A DNA stretch of 48,903 nucleotides. Source: Clostridia bacterium (GTDB lineage: Bacteria; Bacillota; Clostridia; Oscillospirales; Acutalibacteraceae). A program made the position numbers and the translations under genes. Below the pieces are notes generated by a model. The model was not told where the DNA came from. It worked only from the letters and a program-made list of their open reading frames with translations, and ran no database searches. The stretch covers positions 1-48,903 of the forward strand of contig JAFRUA010000014.1 in the NCBI GenBank assembly GCA_017434855.1. The letters run 5' to 3'. Positions 7,092 to 24,089 of this stretch are shown piece by piece (position 1 is the stretch's first letter; each line of letters starts with the position of its first letter).

Positions 7092-7120
7092 TTGCATTTT
7101 ATTATTTCGTGTGATAAAAT
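7092..7120 (+). promoter_or_regulatory. Sigma-A-type promoter of the two-peptide transcript
   Basis: TTGCAT at 7092-7097, a 17-bp spacer ending GTGTGA, and TAAAAT at 7115-7120. The TG-containing spacer end resembles the promoters of the tandem small-protein units at 11.6-13.2 kb, although this extended -10 pattern is common throughout the window. Confidence 0.65.
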
Positions 7121-7162: not shown

Positions 7163-7297
7163 ATGGGATTCATTAAGCAGTTTTTCGGAACCATCATCAA
7201 GCTCATCCAGGCGATGGCAAAGGATGACGCAGTCAGAAACGCGATGGATTCGATTCTTGCCATGCTCGGCATGAAGGAAGAGGAACCCGCAGAATAA
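7163..7297 (+). CDS. Small amphipathic protein, 44 aa
   Basis: Reads MGFIKQFFGTIIKLIQAMAK followed by about ten polar residues, a second helix-like stretch (residues 27-36) and an acidic end (KEEEPAE). Ribosome site GGAGG at 7150-7154, spacer 8. No signal peptide and no leader with a Gly-Gly processing site. The hydrophobic residues fall on one face of a helix in residues 2-18. It is the first gene of a two-gene transcript with its own promoter. Size and build recall beta-type phenol-soluble modulins and leaderless peptides, but no homology can be claimed. Confidence 0.6.
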   Translation: MGFIKQFFGTIIKLIQAMAKDDAVRNAMDSILAMLGMKEEEPAE

Positions 7298-7327
7298 TTT
7301 TTAAAAACATTTTTTGGAGGTACTATC

Positions 7328-7468
7328 ATGGAAGCAATCAAAAACTTTTTTGACGCGATCTATCAAAGCATTCTGACCATCATCGGCGCGGCCGGTTATA
7401 AAAACGGCAAGATCGGCGATGTCGTCAAGATCCTCAGAGACATGTTCGCCGGCGGCGACGCCGAATAA
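7328..7468 (+). CDS. Small amphipathic protein, 46 aa
   Basis: Reads MEAIKNFFDAIYQSILTIIG, then a Gly/Lys-rich middle (AAGYKNGKIGD) and a helix-like end with acidic terminus (GGDAE). GGAGG lies at 7317-7321, 6 nt before the start. It sits 30 bp after the 44-aa gene and before a strong terminator, so the two form a mini-operon. It resembles its partner in length and pattern (M-x-x-I-K-x-F-F) rather than in sequence. Function unknown. Confidence 0.6.
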   Translation: MEAIKNFFDAIYQSILTIIGAAGYKNGKIGDVVKILRDMFAGGDAE

Positions 7469-7505
7469 TCCCGATCGTTTGTTTTCATTTTCTCCTCTTT
7501 TCGCT

Positions 7506-7542
7506 GTGCCGTCCTGCCATGCAGGGCGGCACGGTCCTTTTT
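7506..7542 (+). terminator. Terminator of the two-peptide transcript
   Basis: GTGCCGTCCTGC (7506-7517) pairs with GCAGGGCGGCAC (7521-7532) over a 3-nt loop, followed by GGTCCTTTTT. Confidence 0.75.
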
Positions 7543-8907: not shown

Positions 8908-9578
8908 CATTACAGCAAGCCATGCAAAACCGCCACTCGGTGCGGCAATACCTCGACACGCCCCTGACGGCGCAGCAGATCGCCGCGCTGCGGGCGAAGA
9001 TCGACGAGATCAACAAGACGACCGGGCTGCACATTCAGCTCTTCACGGAAGAGCCGGACTGCTTCACCGGCGCGCTGGCACGGTACGGCAGCTTCAGCGG
9101 CGTGCGCAATTACATTGCCATGGTGGGCAAAAAAGGCAAAGACCTCGCCGAAACGATCGGCTATCACGGCGAAGAACTGGTGCTTTTGGCGCAGACGCTT
9201 GGGCTCAACACCTGCTGGGTTGCGCTGACCTTCAGCAAACGTAAGTGCAAAGCCGTCATCGGCAAAGGCGAAAAGATGCCCATTGTCATTTCGCTCGGCT
9301 ACGGCGCGACGCAGGGCCACGACCGCAAGTGCAAGGCCCCCGGCGACGTTGCCGCCCTGTCTGACGATGACCCGCAGTGGTACCGCGACGGCGTGGCGGC
9401 GGCACTGAACGCCCCGACCGCCATCAATCAGCAAAAGTTTTACTTCACGCGCAAAGGCACCGCCGTCACCGCAAAAGCGACCGGCGGCGTCCACAGCGAT
9501 ATCGACCTCGGCATCGTGAAGCTGCACTTTGCGCTCGGCGCCGGGACGGAGAATTTCACCTGGGGGGATGAGGCATGA
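8904..9578 (+). CDS. Nitroreductase-family flavoprotein
   Basis: 224 aa. N-terminus MTLQQAMQNRHSVRQYLDTP carries the FMN-binding R-H-S-V-R-x-Y pattern of the nitroreductase family, and LGLNTCWVALTFSKR (about 103-117) is the second conserved block. Enzymes of this family reduce nitroaromatics or quinones with NAD(P)H, or serve in other FMN chemistry. The last part (GVHSDIDLGIVKLHFALGAG) is typical of the TM1586-like nitroreductase subgroup. Overlaps thiN and the next gene by 4 bp each (ATGA). Substrate unknown. Confidence 0.82.
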   Translation: MTLQQAMQNRHSVRQYLDTPLTAQQIAALRAKIDEINKTTGLHIQLFTEEPDCFTGALARYGSFSGVRNYIAMVGKKGKDLAETIGYHGEELVLLAQTLGLNTCWVALTFSKRKCKAVIGKGEKMPIVISLGYGATQGHDRKCKAPGDVAALSDDDPQWYRDGVAAALNAPTAINQQKFYFTRKGTAVTAKATGGVHSDIDLGIVKLHFALGAGTENFTWGDEA

Positions 9579-11044
9579 AGCGCTGCATCGCACTGCTGTT
9601 GGCGCTGTTGCTGGCGCTCACGGCGGGGACCGTGTCTGCGTTTGCTGCGGACGCGGACCGTGACCCCATCGTCTATGTCACCGGCTTCGGGTCTGCTCAT
9701 CTGGTCAAAAACGGCGTGCAGGTCTATCCCGCGCCGGGCGCCGAAGTGGCAAAAGCCGTGGCGTCGCTGGTGCCGGCCTATACCGCGTACCGGCTGAACA
9801 ACAACACCCACGCCTTTGCGCAAAAGATCGTCGCCGCCGTGACTGCGCTGTATGAACCGCTGCTTTGCGATGACGCCGGCGTGCCGGCCGACCCGGCGGT
9901 CGTGCTTGACAAGACCAACGACGTGACAAACGATCAGCCTTACGGCAAGCGCAACTATTTCTATTATGACTGGCGTGTGGACGTCACGCAGTCCGCCGCC
10001 GCGCTGCATGATTATATCAACGCCATCCTGGCTGCAACGGGGAAACAGCGCGTGGCGCTGATCTGTTCCAGCATGGGCGCCTGCGTCGGCGCCGCCTATC
10101 TTGACCGGTACGGTACGAAAAACGTGTCGAGCATCGTGTTCTCTTCGGCGGCGGTGAACGGTGTGCCGCTGGTTTCAAAGCTGATGGCCGGAACGCTTCC
10201 GCTGACCGAACGCGTGGTTGTGGCCGAGCTGCAGTCGCTGGATCTGCTGAACGGCGCAAACCTGTCTGCCGCCGCAAAGCGCGCGCTGGACGCCGCCGGC
10301 GGGGTGGACGCCGTTCTGCGCGACGTGGCGCATGTGGCGCACGAAGAAAAGGCCACGCTTTATGACGGCCTGGTGGTGCCGTTTCTTTCCAGAATGCCGG
10401 GCGTGTGGTCGCTCGTGGAGCAGGATCAGGTGTCCGCAGCGAAGCTGGCGGCCGGGGTGCGCCCCGGGTCTGCGCTGGATCAAAAGCTCTACGCGTTCTT
10501 CGGCGGCGTGCGGCTGCGGCTGGTTGATTTGCTCGGTACCGCGCAGCAGGGCGGCGTGCGGCTGGCGATCCTTGCCAATTACACGGAACCTGCCGCTCTG
10601 GCGGAGGACGGGCTGCTGGCCGACGGTCTGATCCCGGTGACGCTGACCTCCTTCGGCGCTGTGAGTACGAACGAAGGGGACCTCCCTGCCTTTCCCGACG
10701 AGATGGACGACGACCGTGAGGCCCTGTCCTCTCCGGACGGGATGATCGACGCGGTCGGCTGTGCCTTCCCGGCGCAGACGTGGTTTGTCAAAGGCGCCGC
10801 CCACACGGTCACCGACGCGCGGTTCTTTTTGTGTGTGGTCTATGCCAAACAGGCCCTGACTGTGACGGCGGACGACCGGTACCCGCGCTTTCTGGCGATG
10901 GGGGACGACGGACACTATGTGCCGCTGGCGCCGACGCTTGACGACCTGCCCCCGGCGGTGCTGGCTGCGCTGCCGACCGTGGTCTCAAAGCTGCGCGCGC
11001 TGCTTCGGTACCTTGCGGCGGCATTTCGGTGGGTGACGGTATGA
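9575..11044 (+). CDS. Secreted alpha/beta-hydrolase (lipase/LCAT-like)
   Basis: 489 aa with a clear signal peptide (1-24, cut near AFA-ADA). The N-terminal part matches secreted alpha/beta hydrolases: early VYVTGFGS (oxyanion region, 34-41), YFYYDWRVD (128-136), and the nucleophile elbow C164-S-S166-M-G168, in which the usual first Gly of GxSxG is Cys. It would act outside the membrane on a lipid or ester. A His is likely near VKGAAHTVTD (about residue 410). The last ~30 residues are hydrophobic/basic. Overlaps both neighbours by 4 bp, odd for a secreted protein among cytosolic enzymes. Specific substrate unknown. Confidence 0.7.
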   Translation: MKRCIALLLALLLALTAGTVSAFAADADRDPIVYVTGFGSAHLVKNGVQVYPAPGAEVAKAVASLVPAYTAYRLNNNTHAFAQKIVAAVTALYEPLLCDDAGVPADPAVVLDKTNDVTNDQPYGKRNYFYYDWRVDVTQSAAALHDYINAILAATGKQRVALICSSMGACVGAAYLDRYGTKNVSSIVFSSAAVNGVPLVSKLMAGTLPLTERVVVAELQSLDLLNGANLSAAAKRALDAAGGVDAVLRDVAHVAHEEKATLYDGLVVPFLSRMPGVWSLVEQDQVSAAKLAAGVRPGSALDQKLYAFFGGVRLRLVDLLGTAQQGGVRLAILANYTEPAALAEDGLLADGLIPVTLTSFGAVSTNEGDLPAFPDEMDDDREALSSPDGMIDAVGCAFPAQTWFVKGAAHTVTDARFFLCVVYAKQALTVTADDRYPRFLAMGDDGHYVPLAPTLDDLPPAVLAALPTVVSKLRALLRYLAAAFRWVTV

Positions 11045-11421
11045 CGCAGGTGGTGGCTGCCCTGATTTGGCAGGGCAAACGGTTTTTGATCTGTCAGCGC
11101 CCGGCGCACAAGATGCGCGGCCTGCTGTGGGAATTTGTCGGCGGCAAGGTGGAGCCTGGGGAGACGAAAGAAGCCGCCCTGGCGCGTGAATGCATGGAGG
11201 AACTGGGCGTTGTCGTTCAGGCGAAGGACGTCTTTCTGGAAGTGGTGCACCGGTACCCCGACATGACGGTGGACCTGACGCTGTTCAACGCCGAAATCGT
11301 CAGCGGAACGCCAAAGCTGCTGGAGCACGCGGATATCCGTTGGATCACGCCGGCGGAAATTGACGGTTATGACTTTTGCCCGGCAGATGTGGAGATCCTG
11401 AAGCGGTTGAAGAGCAAATGA
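11041..11421 (+). CDS. Nudix hydrolase, MutT/8-oxo-dGTPase-like
   Basis: 126 aa. Complete Nudix box GGKVEPGETKEAALARECMEELGV (positions 34-57; given here as the standard G-x5-E-x7-REXXEEXG spacing) within a protein of the normal MutT length. Begins MTQVVAALIWQGKRFLICQR, as in clostridial (deoxy)nucleoside triphosphate pyrophosphohydrolases, which remove oxidised nucleotides. Start at 11041 overlaps the previous stop (ATGA). Last gene of the thiN operon. No clear terminator was found after it. Confidence 0.85.
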   Translation: MTQVVAALIWQGKRFLICQRPAHKMRGLLWEFVGGKVEPGETKEAALARECMEELGVVVQAKDVFLEVVHRYPDMTVDLTLFNAEIVSGTPKLLEHADIRWITPAEIDGYDFCPADVEILKRLKSK

Positions 11422-11630
11422 AAAAGCCCTCTCCATGAGTGGGTGGCAAGAGAGCCCCCTCCGGTGAGTCGCGACTTTCTTTTTTGGAAAACTTTGTTTT
11501 GTACAATTTATGTTCATCGTCCGACTTAATGCCAAAACGGACGAGGCTGCCCCGCACTTTTCATGCGTAGTTCACAAAGCATTGTGCATTATTAACAAAA
11601 CTGGCAAATTAAGTTTGTATAGATTGACAA
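11422..11630. other. Gene-free stretch upstream of the tandem small-protein array
   Basis: No gene is seen. It contains a GTAGTTCAC (11567-11575) and an ATTATTAAC (11588-11596) spaced 21 bp apart, weakly like the LytTR operator found at 18.6 and 20.8 kb, but 34 bp from the next -35 box. The rest is unremarkable. Confidence 0.4.
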
Positions 11631-11659
11631 TTGCACTTATATGAATAATGTGTTAATAT
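11631..11659 (+). promoter_or_regulatory. Promoter of small-protein unit 1
   Basis: TTGCAC (11631-11636), 17-bp spacer ending AATGTGT, TAATAT (11654-11659). The same TTGCnn-17-TAATAT pattern with spacer end TGTGT recurs before units 2 and 3, and slightly altered before unit 4. Confidence 0.75.
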
Positions 11660-11667
11660 ATACATGG

Positions 11668-11698
11668 CAAGAGCGAAGGGCACGATGCGCTTCACTTG
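11668..11698 (+). promoter_or_regulatory. 5' leader hairpin of unit 1
   Basis: CAAG (11668-11671) pairs with CTTG (11695-11698), extended by GAAG/CTTC inside. It begins 9 nt after the -10 box, so it lies at the very 5' end of the RNA. The other three leaders have hairpins at the same place with different but paired arms. Confidence 0.6.
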
Positions 11699-11724
11699 AC
11701 TACTTCAGAAAGGGGATTATGACA

Positions 11725-11895
11725 ATGTTTGATAAGATTAAGGAAATCATTGGCGAGATTAAAGATCTCTTCGCGACCATCGGCGAGACTGGCTTCATCC
11801 AGGCGATCCTTGGCGCTCTGAAGAAGGTCCTCAACATCGAGGGCGAGAGCGAAGCTGAAGAAATCGTTGACGCTGTCATCGGCACCATCGAATAA
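11725..11895 (+). CDS. Tandem small-protein family, unit 1 (56 aa)
   Basis: Reads MFDKIKEIIGEIKDLFATIG, then ETGF, a second amphipathic helix-like stretch (AILGALKKVLNIEG) and an acidic end (ESEAEEIVDAVIGTIE). Twelve acidic against five lysine residues. No Cys, no signal peptide, no Gly-Gly leader. Start at the second ATG (11725), 9 nt after AAGGGG; the first ATG (11719) is only 3 nt from the site and is ACG in unit 4. 49 of 56 residues equal unit 4. One gene per transcript, with its own promoter, 5' hairpin and terminator. Family not recognised; function unknown. Confidence 0.75.
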   Translation: MFDKIKEIIGEIKDLFATIGETGFIQAILGALKKVLNIEGESEAEEIVDAVIGTIE

Positions 11896-11933
11896 TTTAG
11901 CTTCTCGTATGTAAGAATAGCAATTCTTAACGC

Positions 11934-11976
11934 AAGTTCCCCGGCTTCGCCCGGGGACTTTGTGTTTTTTCCGGCT
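11934..11976 (+). terminator. Terminator of unit 1
   Basis: AGTTCCCCGG pairs with CCGGGGACT over a small GC loop, followed by a run of T (11966-11970). A second small hairpin, TAAGAAT/ATTCTTA at 11911-11928, lies between stop codon and terminator and recurs in units 3 and 4. Confidence 0.75.
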
Positions 11977-12046
11977 GGCAGCGGCCGCCAAGTTCAATGC
12001 CTTTGTGTGCTGTCCTTTAAAATAGTGAATTTTTTTCAAAAATCCC

Positions 12047-12075
12047 TTGCAGTTTTGTTCATTTTGTGTTAATAT
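12047..12075 (+). promoter_or_regulatory. Promoter of small-protein unit 2
   Basis: TTGCAG (12047-12052), 17-bp spacer ending TTGTGT, TAATAT (12070-12075). Confidence 0.75.
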
Positions 12076-12084
12076 AAAACCAGG

Positions 12085-12112
12085 CAGGAGGCAAGGACCT
12101 TGCATGCTCCTG
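12085..12112 (+). promoter_or_regulatory. 5' leader hairpin of unit 2
   Basis: CAGGAG (12085-12090) pairs with CTCCTG (12107-12112), with CAAG/CTTG inside. Same distance from the -10 box as in the other units, but different stem bases. Confidence 0.6.
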
Positions 12113-12140
12113 ACAAGATTACAGAAAGGGGACTATGACA

Positions 12141-12317
12141 ATGTTTGATAAGGTGAAGGAATTCATCGGCATCGTACAGGATTATTTCAAGAAGATCGGC
12201 GAGACCGGTTTTCTTCAGTCGCTTTTTAAAACGCTGAAGATGATTCTGCATAACGATGGCAGAACGGAAGGCGAGCAGTTGGTTGACGTCGTCATCGACA
12301 CGCTTCCCGAAGCATAA
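12141..12317 (+). CDS. Tandem small-protein family, unit 2 (58 aa, divergent)
   Basis: Reads MFDKVKEFIGIVQDYFKKIG, then ETGF and a second helix-like stretch, ending DVVIDTLPEA. It keeps the invariant IGETGF (19-24) and the M-F-D-K start but differs at most other positions, with a more basic first half than its siblings. The start is the second ATG, 9 nt after AAAGGGG (12125-12131). It is the most diverged member and could have a distinct or partner role. Function unknown. Confidence 0.72.
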   Translation: MFDKVKEFIGIVQDYFKKIGETGFLQSLFKTLKMILHNDGRTEGEQLVDVVIDTLPEA

Positions 12318-12336
12318 AGATCGATATTCTTTGCGC

Positions 12337-12365
12337 AAGTCCCTCGGTCCGTTCCGGGGGCTTTG
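12337..12365 (+). terminator. Terminator of unit 2
   Basis: AAGTCCCTCGG pairs with CCGGGGGCTT over TCCGTT; followed by TGTGTTG, so the U-tract is weak. Confidence 0.6.
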
Positions 12366-12447
12366 TGTTGCCCGGAACGCTGTGCATGTTGTCCGTAAAA
12401 AAAACGAACGTTTTCTAAATTGGAAATAATTTTTTATCAAAAAAGTC

Positions 12448-12476
12448 TTGCAATTCTGTAAATAATGTGTTAATAT
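12448..12476 (+). promoter_or_regulatory. Promoter of small-protein unit 3
   Basis: TTGCAA (12448-12453), 17-bp spacer ending AATGTGT, TAATAT (12471-12476). Confidence 0.78.
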
Positions 12477-12484
12477 ATCTTTGG

Positions 12485-12515
12485 CAGACAGAAATGTGCT
12501 TTACATAACTGTTTG
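12485..12515 (+). promoter_or_regulatory. 5' leader hairpin of unit 3
   Basis: CAGACAG (12485-12491) pairs with CTGTTTG (12509-12515), using one G-U pair. It starts 9 nt after the -10 box. Confidence 0.6.
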
Positions 12516-12540
12516 ACTACTACGAAAGGAGTATATGACA

Positions 12541-12720
12541 ATGACTGAGATTTTTGAAAAGATTAAGGGCTTTATCGGTGAGATTAAAGACCTCTTCGCG
12601 ACGATCGGTGAGACCGGTTTCTTCCAGGCGATTTTTGGCGCTCTGAAGAAGGTTCTCAACACCGAAGGCGAGACCGAAGCTGAAGAAATCATCGACAGCG
12701 TTGCTGGCACGATCGAATAA
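12541..12720 (+). CDS. Tandem small-protein family, unit 3 (59 aa)
   Basis: Reads MTEIFEKIKGFIGEIKDLFA, then TIGETGFFQAIFGALKKVLN and an acidic end TEGETEAEEIIDSVAGTIE. From residue 5 it is nearly identical to units 1 and 4. Start at 12541, 9 nt after AAAGGAG (12525-12531). Same gene layout as its siblings; no processing site or export signal is seen. The two helix-like halves joined by IGETG suggest a helical hairpin that could lie on a membrane or self-assemble; this is inference. Confidence 0.75.
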   Translation: MTEIFEKIKGFIGEIKDLFATIGETGFFQAIFGALKKVLNTEGETEAEEIIDSVAGTIE

Positions 12721-12753
12721 TTCAGGCTTCAACCTAAGAATAGTTATTCTTAA

Positions 12754-12784
12754 CACAAAACCTCCGGTTCGCCGGGGGTTTTGT
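12754..12784 (+). terminator. Terminator of unit 3
   Basis: ACAAAACCTCCGG pairs with CCGGGGGTTTTGT over TTCG. It is preceded by the TAAGAAT/ATTCTTA hairpin (12734-12751). Confidence 0.75.
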
Positions 12785-12833
12785 GCTTTCCGGCGCAGAC
12801 AATGACCGAAGAGAAAAAAATTTTTATAATATC

Positions 12834-12862
12834 TTGCTTTTTTGGAAAGAATGTGGTAAGAT
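12834..12862 (+). promoter_or_regulatory. Promoter of small-protein unit 4
   Basis: TTGCTT (12834-12839), 17-bp spacer ending AATGTGG, TAAGAT (12857-12862). Confidence 0.7.
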
Positions 12863-12870
12863 AACATTGG

Positions 12871-12900
12871 CAAACGGGGATGTCTTTACATAGCCGTTTG
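12871..12900 (+). promoter_or_regulatory. 5' leader hairpin of unit 4
   Basis: CAAACGG (12871-12877) pairs perfectly with CCGTTTG (12894-12900). Starts 9 nt after the -10 box, as in units 1 and 3. Confidence 0.65.
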
Positions 12901-12925
12901 ACTACTACGAAAGGAGTATACGACA

Positions 12926-13096
12926 ATGTTTGAAAAGATTAAGGGCTTTATCGCTGAGATCAAAGATCTCTTCGCGACGATCGGTGAGACCGGTTTCCTT
13001 CAGGCCATCCTTGGCGCTCTGAAGAAGGTTCTCAACATCGAAGGCGAGACCGAGACTGAAGAAATCGTTGACGCTGTCATCGGCACGATCGAATAA
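12926..13096 (+). CDS. Tandem small-protein family, unit 4 (56 aa)
   Basis: Reads MFEKIKGFIAEIKDLFATIG, then ETGFLQAILGALKKVLNIEG and ETETEEIVDAVIGTIE. 49 of 56 positions equal unit 1. Only one ATG is available: the upstream ATG of its siblings is ACG here, which settles the start for the whole family. AAAGGAG lies 9 nt upstream. At 56 codons it falls below usual gene-calling limits and is easily missed. Confidence 0.75.
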   Translation: MFEKIKGFIAEIKDLFATIGETGFLQAILGALKKVLNIEGETETEEIVDAVIGTIE

Positions 13097-13129
13097 TTCA
13101 GGCTTCGAGTAAGAATAGTTATTCTTAAC

Positions 13130-13162
13130 ACAATGTCCTCCGGTTCGCCGGGGGACTTTGTG
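13130..13162 (+). terminator. Terminator of unit 4
   Basis: ACAATGTCCTCCGG pairs with CCGGGGGACTTTGT over TTCG, then TGCTTTT. Preceded by the TAAGAAT/ATTCTTA hairpin at 13110-13127. Confidence 0.72.
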
Positions 13163-13199
13163 CTTTTATCGGGCTTTTTGGTTTTTTGCCAAAAAAAGC

Positions 13200-13228
13200 T
13201 TGAAAAATGGAACGCGTTGTGTTATACT
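13200..13228 (+). promoter_or_regulatory. Promoter of the fifth small-protein gene
   Basis: TTGAAA (13200-13205), 17-bp spacer ending TTGTGT, TATACT (13223-13228). The leader then contains CATGCGG/CCGCATG arms (13252-13258 and 13275-13281), a hairpin that would mask the ATG at 13253. Confidence 0.7.
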
Positions 13229-13309
13229 GAAACTGACCGAAAGGGCGGTGCCATGCGGTACCGAAAAAACAGCCCGCATGCAGTCGGGTGTGAAGAAAGG
13301 ATGCGTACG

Positions 13310-13450
13310 ATGGATTTTCTGAAAAAGATCGTTGGCCTGCTGGCCGGCATTTTCGGCGCGACGGATGAAAGCAGCCTGTATGTGCTGATGCTTGTCATCA
13401 AAAAGCTGATCGGCCTTGCCGAAGAAAAGACCGAAACAACAGAAGAATAA
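13310..13450 (+). CDS. Small amphipathic protein, 46 aa
   Basis: Reads MDFLKKIVGLLAGIFGATDE, then SSLYVLMLVIKKLIGLAEEK and an acidic end TETTEE. Two strongly hydrophobic/amphipathic helices joined by a polar turn. Start at 13310, 9 nt after AAGAAAGG; in-frame ATGs at 13301 and 13253 are possible but the latter lies in a leader hairpin. It follows the four-unit array in the same direction with its own promoter and terminator, but its sequence is different from them. In size, hydrophobicity and acidic tail it resembles the 44-aa protein at 7163. A beta-PSM-like membrane-active peptide is one possibility. Confidence 0.65.
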   Translation: MDFLKKIVGLLAGIFGATDESSLYVLMLVIKKLIGLAEEKTETTEE

Positions 13451-13462
13451 GCTGAACAACAC

Positions 13463-13493
13463 AAAAAAGCTCCCGCCCGACGGGGGCTTTTTT
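13463..13493 (+). terminator. Terminator of the fifth small-protein gene
   Basis: AAAAAAGCTCCCG pairs with CGGGGGCTTTTTT over a CCCGA loop; strong rho-independent form. Confidence 0.85.
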
Positions 13494-13504
13494 AATTCGC
13501 AATT

Positions 13505-13571
13505 CGCAATTAAGGTCGCGGGGGAACAGAGCCGCAGCGGGATTGTTTCATCCGCGGAGAAAGAAACGTCC
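13505..13571 (-). repeat. Intergenic repeat, copy D (diverged, inverted)
   Basis: On the minus strand: TCCGCGGATGAAACAATCCC and then GTTCCCCCGCGACC, followed by TTAATTGCGAATTGCG. It has the same order of blocks as copies A-C but a longer middle. Lies in the gap before the GH16 gene, which holds nothing else but the promoter. Confidence 0.5.
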
Positions 13572-13678
13572 AATCAGAACATCGTAATTTTTATGCGCTG
13601 TGCGCCGTGATTGCAAGATCGGCGCATCTCGCGCAGCGAGGCGCCCCGCAATTGCGAATTTCTAAATGCGAATTGCAT

Positions 13679-13707
13679 TTGACTTTTCCCCCGCCGCCTG
13701 TTATAAT
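13679..13707 (+). promoter_or_regulatory. Promoter of the GH16 gene
   Basis: TTGACT (13679-13684), 17-bp spacer, TATAAT (13702-13707). Confidence 0.75.
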
Positions 13708-17646: not shown

Positions 17647-17729
17647 GCGCCCGTGGTGGAATTGGCAGACACGTCGGTTTTAGGAGCCGATCCTTCGGGG
17701 TGCAGGTTCAAGCCCTGTCGGGCGCACCA
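17647..17729 (+). tRNA. tRNA-Leu (anticodon TAG)
   Basis: Acceptor GCGCCCG (17647-17653) pairs with CGGGCGC (17719-17725); A discriminator and encoded CCA (17727-17729). Anticodon stem TCGGT/GCCGA encloses loop TTTAGGA, giving anticodon TAG. T-arm GCAGG-TTCAAGC-CCTGT. The variable arm is short. The 3' end abuts a decayed integrase gene, so it is the likely attachment site of an island ending near 32856. Confidence 0.93.
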
Positions 17730-17757: not shown

Positions 17758-18552
17758 TTAAGCCTTCTGTGGGGCAATTTTTTGCCCGTTGTCTTTATTT
17801 TTGTCATTATTTTGTCCGCCACGCAAAACGTCGGCGACAAAATCCATTGCTTGCGCATTCGCAGAATGTATAGCGTGTGTATAAATATTCAGTGTGGTGC
17901 TGATCTCAGAATGGCCCAAAATTGATGAAACGGTCTTGACATCAATCTGACCATTGACGATCATAGCCGTGGCAAACGCATGACGAAAGCTGTGCAGACC
18001 GCGGAAGGGGAGTCCCTCTCTTTTACAGAACCGATACAGCCAAGAGTACGGCCCGTCCGGGTTGATCGGCTGACCATTCCATGACGCGACCATCAGGGGA
18101 TCGGACATCGCGTCCAAATGCTTCATACTCATGTATTTCTTGTTGCCCCATTGGGTGCCGGCAACGTGGCGCAGCCTGGCGCAGACCAGCATGAGGGCGG
18201 AGTTTCCGTCCGGGAAGCAGCCGACGACGCGCGTTCGGCGCCGAATCTCCAGGCTTAGCCGCTCGATAACGTTGTTTGTGCGGATCTTGATCCAGTGCTC
18301 GGAAGGAAAGTCATAGTAGGACAGCGTTTCCTCTATTCCGTTCTCTAACTTGTTGGCCGCCTCCTTTAGTTTCATGGCTTTCAATTCCGCCACAACTGTT
18401 CTTGCTTTTTCTCTCGCAGCCTTTTTGCTTTCCTGCGCATGGATCGCTTTCAGCATTTTTGCCACTGTTTTTATTTTGGATTTTGGTACAACACTGAACA
18501 CGTTGCGGTATAGCTGTTCGATTGGTTTTTCCGGCTTTGTTATGAAATACAA
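17758..18552 (-). pseudogene. IS256 transposase C-terminus fused in frame to a tyrosine-recombinase C-terminus
   Basis: 264-codon open frame. Residues 1 to about 146 match the C-terminal part of IS256/mutator transposases: RTNNVIERLxxEIRRRTRVVG, FPDGNSALMLVCARLRH. Residues about 150-264 are the catalytic end of a phage-type integrase: HSFRHAFAT (box II H-x-x-R), LGHSEISTTLNIYTH (nucleophile Tyr), then a Lys/Asn-rich tail. Both halves lack their N-terminal domains: the DDE residues of the transposase and the first Arg and core-binding domain of the integrase are gone. It points toward the tRNA 3' end, as island integrases do. Probably a deletion or IS-insertion scar, not a working enzyme. Confidence 0.82.
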
Positions 18553-18705: not shown

Positions 18706-19404
18706 ATGAATATTGCCTTACTGGACGACGAGGCGTACGAAAACGAAAACCTGTGCGCCATGATCAAAGCCTATGCGATCAAGCGCAACTTCGACATCCA
18801 TTGCGAGACCTTTACTGACGGACGGGATCTGCTCAAGAAAGACCGTTTCGACCTTTACTTTTTGGACTTCCGGATGGAGGCGATGGACGGGATTGAGGTG
18901 GCGCAGGCACTGAAGGAAAAGTACAGCCATGCCGTTACAATCTGCTATTTGACCAACTACGCTGCGGCGGCAGCGGAGATTATCAACCGGCGCATTTACG
19001 CCGACGGCTTTTTGCAAAAGCCGGTGAAAGCTGCACTGTTGGAAGAAAAGCTCGACCAGTTTTACAGCCTGTCGTTTTTTCAGCGGTTTGAGCTGCGACG
19101 CGGCGCCAACCGGCAGACCGTGTATGCACAGGATATTCTTTATGTGGAAGCGGACGACAAGCGCGTCAAGCTGCATCTTTTTGACCGGGTCGAGAGTTAT
19201 AACTATCTGCTGCGCGAGATCGAAAAAATTTTGCAGAGCGGCGGTGTGTTTTATCGCATTTCCCGTTCATTCCTGGTTAACATGCAGTACGTGGACCGCT
19301 ACGACGCAAAGAGCGTCACAATGAAAAACGGCGAAGTCCTGCCGCTCAAAGACAAAAACTTTCAGCAGGCATATCACGACTATATGTTCCTGCTCAATAA
19401 CTGA
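18706..19404 (+). CDS. LytTR-family response regulator (AgrA-like)
   Basis: 232 aa. Receiver domain 1-118: acidic pair D7/D8, phosphoacceptor D54 (YFLDFRM), T83 region and K105 (LQKPVKA). LytTR DNA-binding domain about 130-228, including DILYVEADDKRVKLH and FYRISRSFLVNMQYV. AAGGAGG lies 9 nt upstream of the ATG. A kinase gene follows after 17 bp. The tandem operator in front of its own promoter suggests autoregulation; a second copy precedes the surface-protein gene. No AgrB/AgrD-type peptide genes are adjacent, so the signal is unknown. Confidence 0.9.
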   Translation: MNIALLDDEAYENENLCAMIKAYAIKRNFDIHCETFTDGRDLLKKDRFDLYFLDFRMEAMDGIEVAQALKEKYSHAVTICYLTNYAAAAAEIINRRIYADGFLQKPVKAALLEEKLDQFYSLSFFQRFELRRGANRQTVYAQDILYVEADDKRVKLHLFDRVESYNYLLREIEKILQSGGVFYRISRSFLVNMQYVDRYDAKSVTMKNGEVLPLKDKNFQQAYHDYMFLLNN

Positions 19405-19421
19405 AGAGGGAGGGATCATTC

Positions 19422-20768
19422 ATGACGGCTCTTGCAGAAGTCATCCGGCAGATGCCGGCCCTTTACGGGGCAATCTCCATACTCGACAACCTGCTTATGG
19501 TTACCGGCTGCGCGTTTGTTACTTTTGCGCTGTTCCATCTGGAGCTGCGCAAAAAGCCCTGGCCCTACCTTTTTGCCGCGCTGTTCTGCATTGTGCTCGG
19601 TGCCGGCGATCATGCGATGCTTGCGGTGCAGGATTCGCTGCTCGATTTGATTTGGACTACGCTGACCATGCTGTTGCCGTTCATCTGTATGACGCTGTTT
19701 TTCCGGCGTCAGGGGCTTTGGAAAGCGATGCTCGTTTCGTTCGGCTATACGTTTGTTGATGCGCTGCGTTATATTGTGCTGCTGCTGTTTTTCAGGTATG
19801 ACTTTGACAACGTCAACGAACCGCTGGAGATGCTCGTCGGCTTCCTTGTAAACGTGGCGGTCTGTCTGCTCGCGTTCGTGCTGCTGACCCGCTACGCGAA
19901 GAAACACGTCATCTCTCTGAATGTGACACGCAACGCATCGATCCTGTTTTTGCTCGTTGTGTTCACAGTTGCGATCTTCGTCACATCGATGCTGCTGTTT
20001 ACCTCGTCCGATACCGTCACGCGGCAGATCGAGTTTGCCTTTGTGCTGCTCAATATCCCGATGTTGACTGCGACCATTGCGTTTGCACTGTTCACCATTT
20101 ACCGGATGCGTGTGCAGTCAGATCGCTACAAAGAGCAGCTGAACATGCAGGTGCGGCAGTTTGAATGGATGGAGCAGATGAACGACGATCTGCGCGTGTT
20201 CTGCCACGATTTCCCGAAAAAGATGCGTCCGCTGATTCTTTATATCGACGAGGATAAGCCGGCGGAGGCGCGCGCGATGGCGCAGCAGTTTACCGACTTT
20301 GTTGCCACCCGCGGCGAACGGTTCCACACCGGCAACTACCGGTTTGACACAGTGCTGTTCTGCGAGCATCAGCTTGCGCTGAAGGACGGCATCCGGTTGG
20401 ACGTTCCGTTCGACACGGTCTTCCCGAAAGAGGGCATTGACCCGGACGATATCTACACCATCTTCCCGAACGCGCTCGACAACGCGATCGAGGCCTGCCG
20501 CAAGGTGGAAGGGGAAAAGGTCATCTCGCTGCACGCGCGAATTTCCAACGATACGGTCTATGTGACGATCCGCAACCCGGTCGCGGAACCGCTCAAAGAG
20601 AAAAACGGTGTTTTGCAGACCACGAAGCAGGACAAGGAGCAGCACGGTTACGGGCTGCGCAGCATTCGGAAAGCGGCGGGAAAATACGGCGAGAACAACG
20701 TCAGTTACAGCGTGGAAAACGGCATGTTTACCTTGCGCCTATATCTCCGATTTGAACCGACCGACTGA
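19422..20768 (+). CDS. AgrC-like sensor histidine kinase (GHKL ATPase)
   Basis: 448 aa. N-terminal half has about six to seven membrane spans (17-235) with no extracellular domain, then a short coiled linker. Phosphoacceptor H262 in the F-C-H-D-F context typical of the HPK10/AgrC class; N-box N350-ALDNAIEAC; G-box near HGYGLRSIRKAAGKYGENN (about 407-425). This class senses peptides or membrane state and phosphorylates LytTR regulators. Co-transcribed with the regulator upstream. The operon lies inside the putative tRNA-Leu island. Confidence 0.9.
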   Translation: MTALAEVIRQMPALYGAISILDNLLMVTGCAFVTFALFHLELRKKPWPYLFAALFCIVLGAGDHAMLAVQDSLLDLIWTTLTMLLPFICMTLFFRRQGLWKAMLVSFGYTFVDALRYIVLLLFFRYDFDNVNEPLEMLVGFLVNVAVCLLAFVLLTRYAKKHVISLNVTRNASILFLLVVFTVAIFVTSMLLFTSSDTVTRQIEFAFVLLNIPMLTATIAFALFTIYRMRVQSDRYKEQLNMQVRQFEWMEQMNDDLRVFCHDFPKKMRPLILYIDEDKPAEARAMAQQFTDFVATRGERFHTGNYRFDTVLFCEHQLALKDGIRLDVPFDTVFPKEGIDPDDIYTIFPNALDNAIEACRKVEGEKVISLHARISNDTVYVTIRNPVAEPLKEKNGVLQTTKQDKEQHGYGLRSIRKAAGKYGENNVSYSVENGMFTLRLYLRFEPTD

Positions 20769-20846: not shown

Positions 20847-20888
20847 TAAGACAGCGAAGATCACGATTCTATGAAAGGTGGAAGAAAT

Positions 20889-23800
20889 ATGAAACGAACA
20901 AACAAACTTTGGCTCGCGTTGCTGCTGACGGCATTGCTGTTGCTCGGCACGGTCGCAACCGGCTTTTCCGCCGTGGCGGAAGGGGAAACAATTGTTGATT
21001 CCGGCTATTGCGGCGCGGAAGGCAACGAAGAAAACGCAAGCTGGGCCCTCAACCGGGACGGAACACTGACGATCAGCGGCGAGGGCGAAGTGTATGGACG
21101 GGTCTCCGCTATGGGCGATACTCCGTGGACGTTGTATAACTATGGCGGTGTAGAAGAAGTACAAATACAACAGGTAATCATCGAACCTGGCATCACGAAT
21201 GTTCCTGCAGCCATGTGCCTTTGCAACAGCAATCTGACGCACGTTGAAATTCCGGACACTGTGACGCATATCGACGAATGGGCATTCTATAGATGCAGTC
21301 ATCTTTCCTATATTGACGTTCCGGACTCTGTGACTACAATCGGCGCCTCTGTCTTTCAGTGCTGCGACAAACTGCTCTCTATCCGTTTGCCGGAACAGCT
21401 GTCTTGCATCAGCCAGAACACATTTCTTGAATGTAAAAGTCTGGAAAGTGTGATTATTCCGAAAAGCGTGACGTTGATTAAAAACGGTGCGTTCAAAGAA
21501 GCGGACAGGCTCAGTGACGTCTATTTTTCCGGCAGCGAAGAAGAATGGAACAATATCTCCGTTCAAAGCAACAATGACGAACTGCTTGCGGCAACAATTC
21601 ATTTTATCAGCGAAGGACCGGAAATCGGACCTTCGCAGCCGACCGATAACTACAACTGGCAGCCGATCCCGACCTCACCCGACGATCTTGCGGAAGGCGA
21701 CTGGTATCTTGATTTCACAGACTTTCAGGGTGCGCTCAATCTTATGCTCTCGATGGCGGTGCCGGGTACGGAGGACGACTGGTATTTTGACGAAGACGCT
21801 ATGGTGCTGAAAGTGGAAGGCGTGATTCCGCAAGGTATGACGGTATTCAATCCTGACGGAACATACAAACAGTACCCGGAAACCATGGTCAAAATGGAAC
21901 CCGACGATCAGCTGCCAGGCTGCATGGAATACTTTGTCTATCGTTTTTTGAACCGTGTCGGTCAAAGCTGGGTCTGGCTGTCTTCGCAGGATCCGTATTA
22001 TTCCGTCCGGGGATATCGCATCGATTATCCGGCGCTTGCCCGTCAGGTGATAGCCGCCGATGACAGGTGGAGCGATGCGGATTATGATACCGTGCTTGCC
22101 CTCGTGCGCGAAGGCGAATGGATCGCCGATCTGGATCACGGGTTGCTGAAAGGCTGCTACGGGATTTCCACCGAGCTGACCGCATTTGGCAGAGACCAGT
22201 ACCGGTTCGTACTTCCTTCCGCAGCGTTTTTTGCGGCCTGTGTCACAGATGAACCGATTCCGGTCCCCGAGATATCGGACCTGTCCTCCCTCAGCGGACA
22301 ATGGGGCGATACGATCAGCTGGACGCTGGAAGACGGCACACTGACCATCAGCGGTACCGGCGAATTGAAGGAGCAAATCAACACGGTTCAGGAAGGCCCA
22401 ATCTACTCCAGCCTGTATTATAACTGGGAGGAACTGTCCTTCCGCACATCCGGAAACGGCTACGGAAGAAGCCGTTCGCTGCTACAGGATGAAATCAACA
22501 ATGCTTTATGTGCTCATTTTGATGTCGTGAATCCAAGCGATGACTCGCTGGAACAGGCAATCATGGATGGCAGACTGGATCCGATTGAAGCTATGGAATA
22601 CTATTATGACTTGATTCGTGAGGTAAAAACGGTTGTGATCGAAGAAGGGATCACCTCTGTTAACAGGTATGTTTTGTCATCTCTCTCTCCTCAAAAGCTG
22701 GTTTTGCCTGCATCCATGACCTACGGAAACATCGAGTTGAATCTGCCGTTCTTTTTCTCGAGCTTTTTCGATGTGGATATCTATATTGCAAACCCCGAAG
22801 CAGATTTTACGCCTTTGCAGGTTTCGATTCCTGCTTTTTCCGAAGCGTTTCTTTCTCTGGCATCTGACGAAATCACCCGCTGTGCAAAGAAAATTGTGGC
22901 AAAGCAATACGAACTGATGGCGGAGGAAGATCGCTATGATTCAATCCTTAAAGAGCTGTTCGAAGTGAAAATGGGAATCAATTCCGCACCGCCCTATTAC
23001 CCGAGTCTGATAAAAACCTGTGACCAGGTCGTTGCCGACTGGAACGCTCGGACCGGCAGCCACTATACTTCCGCCGATGATTTGATCGCGGATTGCATTG
23101 CGGCGATCAACGCTTTGTATGGTACTGATTTCACCGCGCCGGAGGATCTGTTCTATGCTTATCCGAGCGGTTTATCCGCTTGTGAAACGCAAGCTTATCA
23201 GGATGCAAAAAACGCTTATTGGGATCGAGAAGCACAGGAACTGTTTGCCGATGATCCGAATATGGAGGTTTTCTTCCATGAAATCTATGAGGGCGAACAT
23301 CTCACATTCAGCCTTGGTCAGGCGATCCCGGCCTCGGAAGACGGCACGGTGTACTGCGTGCCGGACTGGATCACCATCCACGGTTATCCCGGCTCCACGG
23401 CCGAAACTGCGGCGGCAACCAGCGGCGTCAAGTTCGCGCCGTACGGCACCTGCGGAGACAACCTTGTCTGGACGATGGACAATAATGTCCTGACCATCAG
23501 CGGCACGGGCGCCATGGCGGACTATACCGACAGCGATCCCGCCCCCTGGATGGAATATTTTGCCGATCCCGACGCCGCGATCACCGTGCTGCTGGAAGAA
23601 GGCGTCACACGCATCGGCACAAATGCGTTCCCCGCGGCGGAAGGTCTGAAAGAGATGATCGTGCTGAACAAGCAATGTGACCTTTCTTCGCTTGTGATCT
23701 TGGAGCCGGCGATGCTGCGCGGCTATCTTGATTCGACGGCGGAAGCGTACGGCAACGCCCATGAGGACGACAGCCTGTTTGAGCCGCTGTGCCCGAAGGA

Positions 23801-24089
23801 TTATCACCATACGGTCTCGCTGATCGAAGAGGAACCCTCCACCTGTATTGAACATGGCCATGAACCGGGCGTCTACTGCGACGACTGCGAAGAGGTGATT
23901 TACGGAAATCAAACAAGACCACTGACTGACCACACATGGAGCGAGTGGAGCGAAAAAGACGGCGTCAAGACCCGCACCTGCTCTGTCTGTAAAAAGACCC
24001 AGCAGGAGGGCGAGCGCGACAACTTCATTATGAGAGCGATGCGCGCCATCGTCGCCTGGCTCAAAAAGCTTCTGAGCTTCTTCGGCTGA
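20889..24089 (+). CDS. Secreted BspA-type leucine-rich-repeat surface protein
   Basis: 1066 aa. Signal peptide 1-30. Then blocks of the BspA/LRR_5 type: a TLTISGEGE motif near 60, LRR units (about 110-210) with repeating VTHIDEWAFYRCSHLSYI-like lines, another TLTISGTGEL near 485, and VLTISGTGAMADYTDSDPAPW near 865. Near the C-terminus come Cys-rich stretches (CDDCEEVIY, CSVCKKTQQ) and a final amphipathic tail MRAIVAWLKKLLSFFG. Such proteins are surface or secreted adhesin-like proteins in gut clostridia. Start at 20889 with AAAGGTGG upstream. The LytTR operator upstream implies control by the neighbouring two-component system. Confidence 0.82.
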   Translation: MKRTNKLWLALLLTALLLLGTVATGFSAVAEGETIVDSGYCGAEGNEENASWALNRDGTLTISGEGEVYGRVSAMGDTPWTLYNYGGVEEVQIQQVIIEPGITNVPAAMCLCNSNLTHVEIPDTVTHIDEWAFYRCSHLSYIDVPDSVTTIGASVFQCCDKLLSIRLPEQLSCISQNTFLECKSLESVIIPKSVTLIKNGAFKEADRLSDVYFSGSEEEWNNISVQSNNDELLAATIHFISEGPEIGPSQPTDNYNWQPIPTSPDDLAEGDWYLDFTDFQGALNLMLSMAVPGTEDDWYFDEDAMVLKVEGVIPQGMTVFNPDGTYKQYPETMVKMEPDDQLPGCMEYFVYRFLNRVGQSWVWLSSQDPYYSVRGYRIDYPALARQVIAADDRWSDADYDTVLALVREGEWIADLDHGLLKGCYGISTELTAFGRDQYRFVLPSAAFFAACVTDEPIPVPEISDLSSLSGQWGDTISWTLEDGTLTISGTGELKEQINTVQEGPIYSSLYYNWEELSFRTSGNGYGRSRSLLQDEINNALCAHFDVVNPSDDSLEQAIMDGRLDPIEAMEYYYDLIREVKTVVIEEGITSVNRYVLSSLSPQKLVLPASMTYGNIELNLPFFFSSFFDVDIYIANPEADFTPLQVSIPAFSEAFLSLASDEITRCAKKIVAKQYELMAEEDRYDSILKELFEVKMGINSAPPYYPSLIKTCDQVVADWNARTGSHYTSADDLIADCIAAINALYGTDFTAPEDLFYAYPSGLSACETQAYQDAKNAYWDREAQELFADDPNMEVFFHEIYEGEHLTFSLGQAIPASEDGTVYCVPDWITIHGYPGSTAETAAATSGVKFAPYGTCGDNLVWTMDNNVLTISGTGAMADYTDSDPAPWMEYFADPDAAITVLLEEGVTRIGTNAFPAAEGLKEMIVLNKQCDLSSLVILEPAMLRGYLDSTAEAYGNAHEDDSLFEPLCPKDYHHTVSLIEEEPSTCIEHGHEPGVYCDDCEEVIYGNQTRPLTDHTWSEWSEKDGVKTRTCSVCKKTQQEGERDNFIMRAMRAIVAWLKKLLSFFG

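Follow-up and report, generated by a model that had tools for sequence, protein, structure and literature searches.

Tandem arrays of small, leaderless, amphipathic proteins in a genus of gut Clostridia

The small proteins considered here are best compared with the beta-type phenol-soluble modulins (PSMs) of staphylococci, which are secreted as a formylated product by a dedicated ATP-binding cassette (ABC) exporter. AgrD, a signalling precursor of about 45 amino acids (aa), combines an amphipathic N-terminal part with an acidic tail. In part of one published account (PMC5442197), beta-type PSMs are described as about 45 aa long, without a signal peptide, helical in their N- and C-terminal parts, encoded by duplicated genes and exported by ABC exporters. 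A section of a second source (PMC6131525) deals with leaderless bacteriocins: its multi-peptide and enterocin MR10 rows list charges of +3 to +7 and isoelectric points (pI) of 10.7-11.1, and multi-peptide loci are said there to have conserved neighbours. Here we describe an array of small-protein genes in a 48,903-nt stretch of DNA (hereafter the window) from a Clostridia bacterium (assembly GCA_017434855.1, contig JAFRUA010000014.1), where the region at 11.6-13.2 kb consists of four tandem one-gene units encoding acidic proteins of 56, 58, 59 and 56 aa, each with its own promoter, 5' hairpin, ribosome site and 3' hairpins (Table 1). Like beta-type PSMs as described there, the array proteins are leaderless, short and amphipathic, with two helical parts and duplicated genes; unlike PSMs, they are acidic, most of their genes have a promoter of their own, up to 15 such genes are found per genome, in several loci, and the lineage is that of Clostridia. 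With aureocin A70 and garvicin KS, as presented in the same section of PMC6131525, they share the lack of a leader and the encoding of several related proteins side by side, whereas the bacteriocins in those rows are cationic, 30-31 aa long and have conserved neighbours, and the arrays encode acidic proteins of 38-72 aa amid mostly housekeeping genes. The arrays are real and under selection, and their mechanism is open to several readings.

The original prediction, made from the letters of the window, had described the four tandem units for acidic proteins of 56-59 aa, and open reading frames (ORFs), promoters, hairpins and terminators all lie where it had placed them. The uniform promoter form that it had noted, TTGCnn and a TAATAT-like element 17 bp apart, is present in all four units, each time with TG before the -10 element; a generic promoter scan that needs nine of 12 consensus bases did not list these promoters. 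The 5' hairpins fold at -10.7 to -13.2 kcal/mol, and each unit closes with two 3' hairpins, one of them palindromic and the other GC-rich (z -2.5 to -7.0); a terminator scan lists units 1, 2 and 4. A 193-nt direct repeat runs in four copies across the units. All four proteins contain IGETGF; identity to unit 4 is 88% for unit 1 (49 of 56 positions), 84% for unit 3 and 50% for unit 2, units 1, 3 and 4 being mutually 80-88% identical and unit 2, which had been called diverged, 46-50% identical to these. With unit 4 as query, the other three are recovered at E 2.3e-13 to 1.4e-25. The lengths given are counted from a common ATG; an extra in-frame ATG lies two codons upstream in units 1-3 and is absent in unit 4. 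Three further sets had gone unremarked, namely a fifth unit (13310-13450), a pair at 7163-7468, both ORFs of which lie between one promoter and one terminator, and a second array of seven ORFs on contig 16 (L049) of the same genome.

Proteins of this kind extend through the genus. A small-ORF caller yielded 107 distinct proteins from 14 of 34 genomes (of 124 ORFs called, 17 were removed, two as duplicates and 15 because they looked spurious by eye), with lengths of 38-72 aa (median 53 aa), no Cys and a net acidic charge in 100 of the 107. Since the caller admitted only ORFs that had a Shine-Dalgarno site and enough hydrophobic residues, contained no more than one Cys and were poor in Arg, Pro and His, and loci were initially picked with a charge filter or by profile, these properties and the charge partly reflect the choice; neither helical periodicity nor hairpins figured among the criteria of the caller. 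Hydrophobic periodicity peaks at 100 degrees in residues 2-24 and more weakly in residues 24-46, with a mean helical-angle power of 5.22 and 2.79, respectively, over the 107 proteins, as against 1.24 and 1.11 in shuffles and 1.07 and 1.22 in 53 composition-filtered ORFs of array-free loci. Gly, Asn, Asp, Pro or Ser abound in the middle, and the C-terminal part is acidic. In AlphaFold2 models, unit 4 has helices at 2-39 and 42-55 (mean predicted local distance difference test score, pLDDT, 77) and a protein of array C at 2-26 and 32-59 (mean pLDDT 66). Periodicity and models alike point to an amphipathic helix in both the N- and the C-terminal part. No signal peptide is visible by eye in any of them, in agreement with the amphipathic, leaderless, Cys-free character originally ascribed to the four units. 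An alignment of 93 proteins contains no conserved column, and the profile alignment shows no conserved core besides Met1. What they have in common is physical rather than sequential: they are small and acidic and have two helical stretches of amphipathic character. Annotation easily passes over small leaderless proteins, and these are conserved in their physics and hardly in their sequence. Single-linkage clustering, made without composition correction and liable to over-join, places 62 of the 107 in one cluster.

Selection on the proteins, which had been suspected from the tandem duplication, is borne out by ratios of non-synonymous to synonymous substitution (dN/dS) of 0.11-0.31 in all six pairs among units 1-4; no value near 1 was seen among these, and the units are therefore genes and not chance frames. 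Of 43 comparisons within 15 groups, a subset of the 107 proteins, 42 gave a dN/dS of 0.00-0.42 and the remaining one 0.68, at a dS of 0.07; a control with NUDIX genes yielded no dS owing to saturation. Comparable members are coding genes under purifying selection. They belong to no described family in the libraries searched, as far as sequence profiles can tell: scans of 56 members and the five window proteins against Pfam, NCBIfam, PHROGs and PADLOC gave none above cut-off, in keeping with the failure to recognize a family at the outset. Weak matches were scattered, few being common to more than one member (AgrD with three members, best E 0.001; PHROG 29666 with three, best 0.013; Cas12c models with two, best 0.001), and we take these as effects of composition. 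The best match by sequence in the PDB was a designed helical bundle (E 0.0058). Within open papers, a weak basis for a negative, no such arrays were found for Clostridia.

The regulatory signals of the window units also recur. A promoter score of at least 9 within 130 nt was reached by 86 of the 107 units, compared with 80 of 535 shuffled upstream regions and 78 of 141 ordinary genes of the same loci, under a score that rewards TG before the -10 element and a 17-bp spacer and was applied identically to all three; TG preceded the -10 element in 74 of the 86 unit promoters and in 45 of the 78 ordinary ones. The fold of the transcript start had a median z of -1.77 in the 70 units long enough and of -0.29 in 43 ordinary genes, with z below -1 for the 5' untranslated region (UTR) in 53 of 70 and 14 of 43, respectively. 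Both promoters and 5' hairpins are therefore stronger than in ordinary genes of the genus. In 14 window-type units from five genomes the foot of the 5' hairpin is nearly constant (GCA with UGAC, one A bulged), its outermost pair forming in 12 of the 14, and the upper stem varies. In these hairpins 82% of cells pair, with a covariation of 0.330 against 0.154 +/- 0.033 in shuffles (0 of 500 as high) and at most 0.124 in slid versions. The 3' palindrome AAGAATAGTTATTCTTAACACAA, with up to three mismatches, occurs at six places in four of 59 genomes, every one of them in array units.

We lean, tentatively and well short of conviction, to the reading that the small proteins work like beta-type PSMs, that is, as leaderless peptides of helix-loop-helix form whose place of action is a membrane or another interface. 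Each would be made as a finished product with no leader, leave the cell without the help of a signal peptide, and lay its two amphipathic helices on a membrane or hydrophobic surface, be it that of a competitor, the producer's own envelope, a feed particle or lipid. The 5' hairpins would slow the decay of the messenger RNA (a 5'-terminal stem-loop can stabilize mRNA in E. coli, according to the title of a work cited in PMC2777011), and repeated duplication and divergence would widen the range of surfaces or targets. We infer expression, export and membrane activity of the small proteins, whose clusters may be a peptide toolkit acting on membranes or cell surfaces. Were this so, a mechanism known from staphylococci would be present in further gut bacteria, and the array proteins would be a new resource of peptides.

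Several observations weigh against such a role. The proteins are acidic, with a median charge of -4 and a median pI of 4.5. Both structural models are of modest confidence, and that of unit 4 is dominated by one long helix and shows no clean hairpin. PF05480, the beta-type PSM family, is not among the 21 families matched by any of the 56 members at E <= 0.1, and PSMalpha (PF17063) was matched by one of the 56 at E 0.0017, a value that rises to about 0.1 once the 56 queries are allowed for. No gene for an exporter or for immunity was seen to recur beside the arrays, as judged by eye and with Pfam for 20 proteins, exporter genes not having been searched for as such. The stem behind the covariation count of the 5' hairpins was read from the very sequences scored, and the alignment of these 5' UTRs has a weak consensus fold (-1.38 kcal/mol, covariation term -0.04). 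Finally, codon usage of the array genes is unlike that of highly expressed genes: the index is 0.57-0.66 in units 1-5, 0.53 and 0.70 in the 7163-7468 pair and 0.48-0.67 in the contig-16 set, compared with an average of 0.60 over stretches of 55 codons from other genes of the window, an average that includes one of 16 genes taken in a wrong frame (7 stops). Because this usage is ordinary, it argues against great abundance. The suggestion of an abundant structural protein thus finds no support in codon usage, despite the strong promoters and 5' hairpins, while amphipathy, no leader, no family, selection and diversity stand. The roles listed in the earlier interpretation remain candidates, activity at a membrane or other interface being the one we prefer.

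The lack of a signal peptide, the acidic pI and the two-helix amphipathic architecture would equally suit proteins of the cytosol that serve structure or membrane curvature, for instance as phasin-like or apolipoprotein-like coats of granules, of vesicles or of the membrane's inner face, and that no exporter was seen to recur in the neighbourhoods just mentioned points the same way. Strong diversification and turnover within a single genus would, however, be unusual for a housekeeping coat, and in the same inspection of neighbours no granule genes were noticed. We regard this alternative as unlikely, yet deserving of serious consideration.

A rather unlikely possibility arises from helices on larger proteins. 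Weak matches of the profile built from the small proteins were not all noise: in the genomes of four species (L069, L072, L073 and L086; E 0.0014-0.078) it also matched BD-FAE esterases at their N-terminus; these four have no signal peptide and start with an amphipathic helix (L072 1501-2400: MFDKIIAFF...), followed by a Gly-rich linker in the two that were translated. Upstream of the L072 gene, inspection by eye found the same promoter form (TTGAAA-17-TAACAT, its -10 extended) together with a strong Shine-Dalgarno site and a short hairpin. Seven further matches are C-terminal amphipathic tails of larger proteins (L074, L077, L079, L082, L083, L085 and L088), of which L074, L082 and L085 have a signal peptide by eye, L077 and L088 have ambiguous N-termini, and L079 and L083 begin beyond the stretch available. 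In the window, two signal-peptide proteins (9575-11044 and 20871-24089) end alike, both tails being basic. These two are among about eight, three of them orthologues, that end in an amphipathic helix by eye out of 49 putative secreted proteins chosen by a crude rule from all the loci covered. No anchor family was recognized for the tails of the larger proteins. With a helix of this sort at the front of leaderless esterases and at the end of other proteins, a genus-specific docking or scaffold module can be proposed, in which stand-alone helices co-assemble with helix-tagged proteins and hold enzymes and surface proteins at the envelope; the esterase helix would possibly be an export or docking tag, and the stand-alone proteins might represent one version of a more general helix module. 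Against this, the profile matches are weak, and any amphipathic helix may fit such a profile; moreover, tags and tails lie mostly in genomes without a known array, which argues that they are independent of arrays. If small proteins did dock tagged enzymes, this would be a new way to organize a bacterial surface. A more elaborate version, an amphipathic-helix code by which hypervariable miniproteins co-assemble with the N-terminal helices of leaderless esterases and the C-terminal helices of secreted proteins into a surface scaffold held together non-covalently (or an export route that dispenses with signal peptides), different from cohesin-dockerin, sortase or S-layer systems, strikes us as distinctly improbable.

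Classical multi-peptide leaderless bacteriocins are likewise small, tandemly encoded, leaderless and free of Cys, and we consider it very improbable that the arrays encode them: the fit is poor because the array proteins are too acidic for the range listed in those rows of PMC6131525, and no common neighbour was found at the arrays by the inspection already described. Hardly any credence is due to AgrD-like signalling precursors, or other ribosomally synthesized and post-translationally modified peptide (RiPP) precursors. Three of the 56 members match AgrD (PF05931) at E 0.001-0.1, and an amphipathic N-terminal part with an acidic tail would suit it; unlike AgrD, whose thiolactone core has a conserved Cys or Ser, the array proteins lack Cys and a conserved core, and AgrB scored over cut-off in three of the 34 genus genomes (G009, G020 and G025) and in none of the 14 with arrays, several genomes being incomplete, an absence that mostly refutes this reading. 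The window also encodes, at 18706-20768, a LytTR response regulator and GHKL sensor kinase pair, AgrB not having been found in its genome. Small ORFs with private promoters and terminators might recall type I toxins or non-coding DNA with chance frames, a notion that likewise deserves hardly any credence given the dN/dS values well under 1, the lack of any Rfam match over gathering score in window 11400-13700, the restriction of two minus-strand promoter-like sites to unit 3, and proteins that are acidic and amphipathic instead of hydrophobic and single-span.

Table 1. Positions of the small-protein units and their signals in the window.
Feature	Position	Strand	Details and basis
Promoter, unit 1	11631..11659	+	TTGCAC-17-TAATAT, extended -10 TGTGT
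5' UTR hairpin, unit 1	11666..11701	+	folding and covariation analysis
ORF, unit 1	11725..11895 (with stop)	+	56 aa; 58 aa if start is ATG at 11719
3' palindrome hairpin and terminator, unit 1	11912..11965	+	terminator scan, fold z
Promoter, unit 2	12047..12075	+	TTGCAG-17-TAATAT
5' UTR hairpin, unit 2	12085..12112	+	folding
ORF, unit 2 (diverged copy)	12141..12317 (with stop)	+	58 aa; 60 aa if start is ATG at 12135
3' hairpin and terminator, unit 2	12316..12368	+	terminator scan, fold z
Promoter, unit 3	12448..12476	+	TTGCAA-17-TAATAT
5' UTR hairpin, unit 3	12483..12518	+	folding and covariation analysis
ORF, unit 3	12541..12720 (with stop)	+	59 aa; 61 aa if start is ATG at 12535
3' palindrome (AAGAATAGTTATTCTT) and terminator-like stem, unit 3	12735..12785	+	palindrome search, fold z
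Promoter, unit 4	12834..12862	+	TTGCTT-17-TAAGAT
5' UTR hairpin, unit 4	12869..12903	+	folding and covariation analysis
ORF, unit 4	12926..13096 (with stop)	+	56 aa; structure modelled
3' palindrome and terminator, unit 4	13110..13162	+	palindrome search, terminator scan, fold z
Promoter, unit 5	13200..13228	+	TTGAAA-17-TATACT; promoter scan
ORF, unit 5	13310..13450	+	46 aa; same architecture, unlike sequence
Promoter of 7163-7468 pair	7092..7120	+	TTGCAT-17-TAAAAT
Small amphipathic protein, first of pair	7163..7297	+	44 aa; G022 counterpart at L016 7197-7340
Small amphipathic protein, second of pair	7328..7468	+	46 aa; dN/dS 0.06 against G022 counterpart
Terminator of 7163-7468 pair	7503..7535	+	terminator scan

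As far as tested by sequence searches, the set appears restricted to the genus. Protein comparison with 58 relatives (33 of the genus and 25 outside it) found close copies in one, G022, which has two; eight further genomes matched at E 0.0096 or worse, the two matches in G001 falling in a real array, and a first contig scan with unit 4 as query confirmed nothing. A profile (A1) of 56 proteins from seven genomes matched 13 of the 34 genus genomes at E <= 0.005, six of them outside the profile (G002, G004, G014, G017, G025 and G026), the match in G025 being an esterase N-terminus and not a small ORF; five more genomes have one candidate each by eye (G003, G008, G015, G023 and G024; E 0.011-0.10). 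Unit 5 matches the profile at E 7.3e-7 but is itself one of its rows; it is a singleton in the clustering and hence outside the dN/dS comparisons, and its stop is followed by a GC-rich stem and a T run that are absent from the plus-strand list of the terminator scan. In 295 genomes of the order the profile at E <= 0.005 matched the window's own genome alone, and in 398 of the phylum at E 0.001 it matched that genome and one other, within a 650-aa frame (E 9.8e-4). Beyond the genus, the profile thus gave no credible match in 294 genomes of the order and 397 of the phylum, two samples that share some genomes and were scored after a loose preliminary pass. The promoter string was found at 15 places in 10 of 59 genomes; 11 of the places, that of the contig-16 array included, precede small-ORF arrays, and in named records six of 10 stretches have an array behind it, so that the string alone is not diagnostic. 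All six named array records are metagenome-assembled Ruminococcaceae or Clostridia, three of them (two assemblies) labelled as sheep or goat rumen, and records of the RUG series are presumably of rumen origin as well. The carriers are a little-studied group of gut bacteria, some from the rumen.

Number and sequence of copies differ between species of the genus, in line with the diversity that had been foreseen, and sites persist. The array at the NUDIX locus is present in G000, G001 and G013 and lies about 4 kb further on in G022; in G012 an array begins at a contig end and may adjoin the NUDIX locus there. At 16 further NUDIX loci from other species of the genus, 191 kb in all, no array was found; in three of them (L123, L128 and L135) one may still lie beyond the contig end, which is on one side less than about 0.8 kb away from the NUDIX gene. 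The caller found 75 tandem pairs in 311 kb of array loci and two, of unlike ORFs, in the 191 kb of NUDIX control, a difference that shows only the specificity of the caller because array loci were chosen for their arrays. A second locus stays near alaS in G000 (named by Pfam) and in G001, G013 and G022 (by eye) with changing gene content, and other small ORFs lie beside alaS in G004 and G019. It looks as though the sites are inherited by descent and the genes within them undergo birth and death. As to a mobile-element origin, no exact promoter match was found in viral contigs and no plasmid match for unit 4, a phage collection not having been searched. Elsewhere in the window, a 264-aa frame on the minus strand (17758-18552) resembles a tyrosine recombinase by eye and is adjoined by tRNA-Leu (17647-17729), a possible integration site.

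Arrays lie mostly amid housekeeping genes, with transporters at some sites. The window array is flanked by genes for thiamine pyrophosphokinase, nitroreductase, NUDIX and GH16 proteins, while around the second site Pfam names a GDSL esterase, an aminotransferase and alanyl-tRNA synthetase besides TPM and SPFH proteins; there, at L049 10631-14412, the array adjoins a group of TPM-domain, zinc-ribbon and SPFH (Band 7) genes. At the other sites neighbours were judged by eye. An ABC ATPase with a permease was seen by eye near the array-F loci L098 and L107, neighbours not having been clustered. At L097 1634-2355, L098 6386-7114 and L107 4756-5461, a small amphipathic ORF follows the gene of a 128-133 aa protein with an apparent signal peptide, the two forming a conserved pair in three species.

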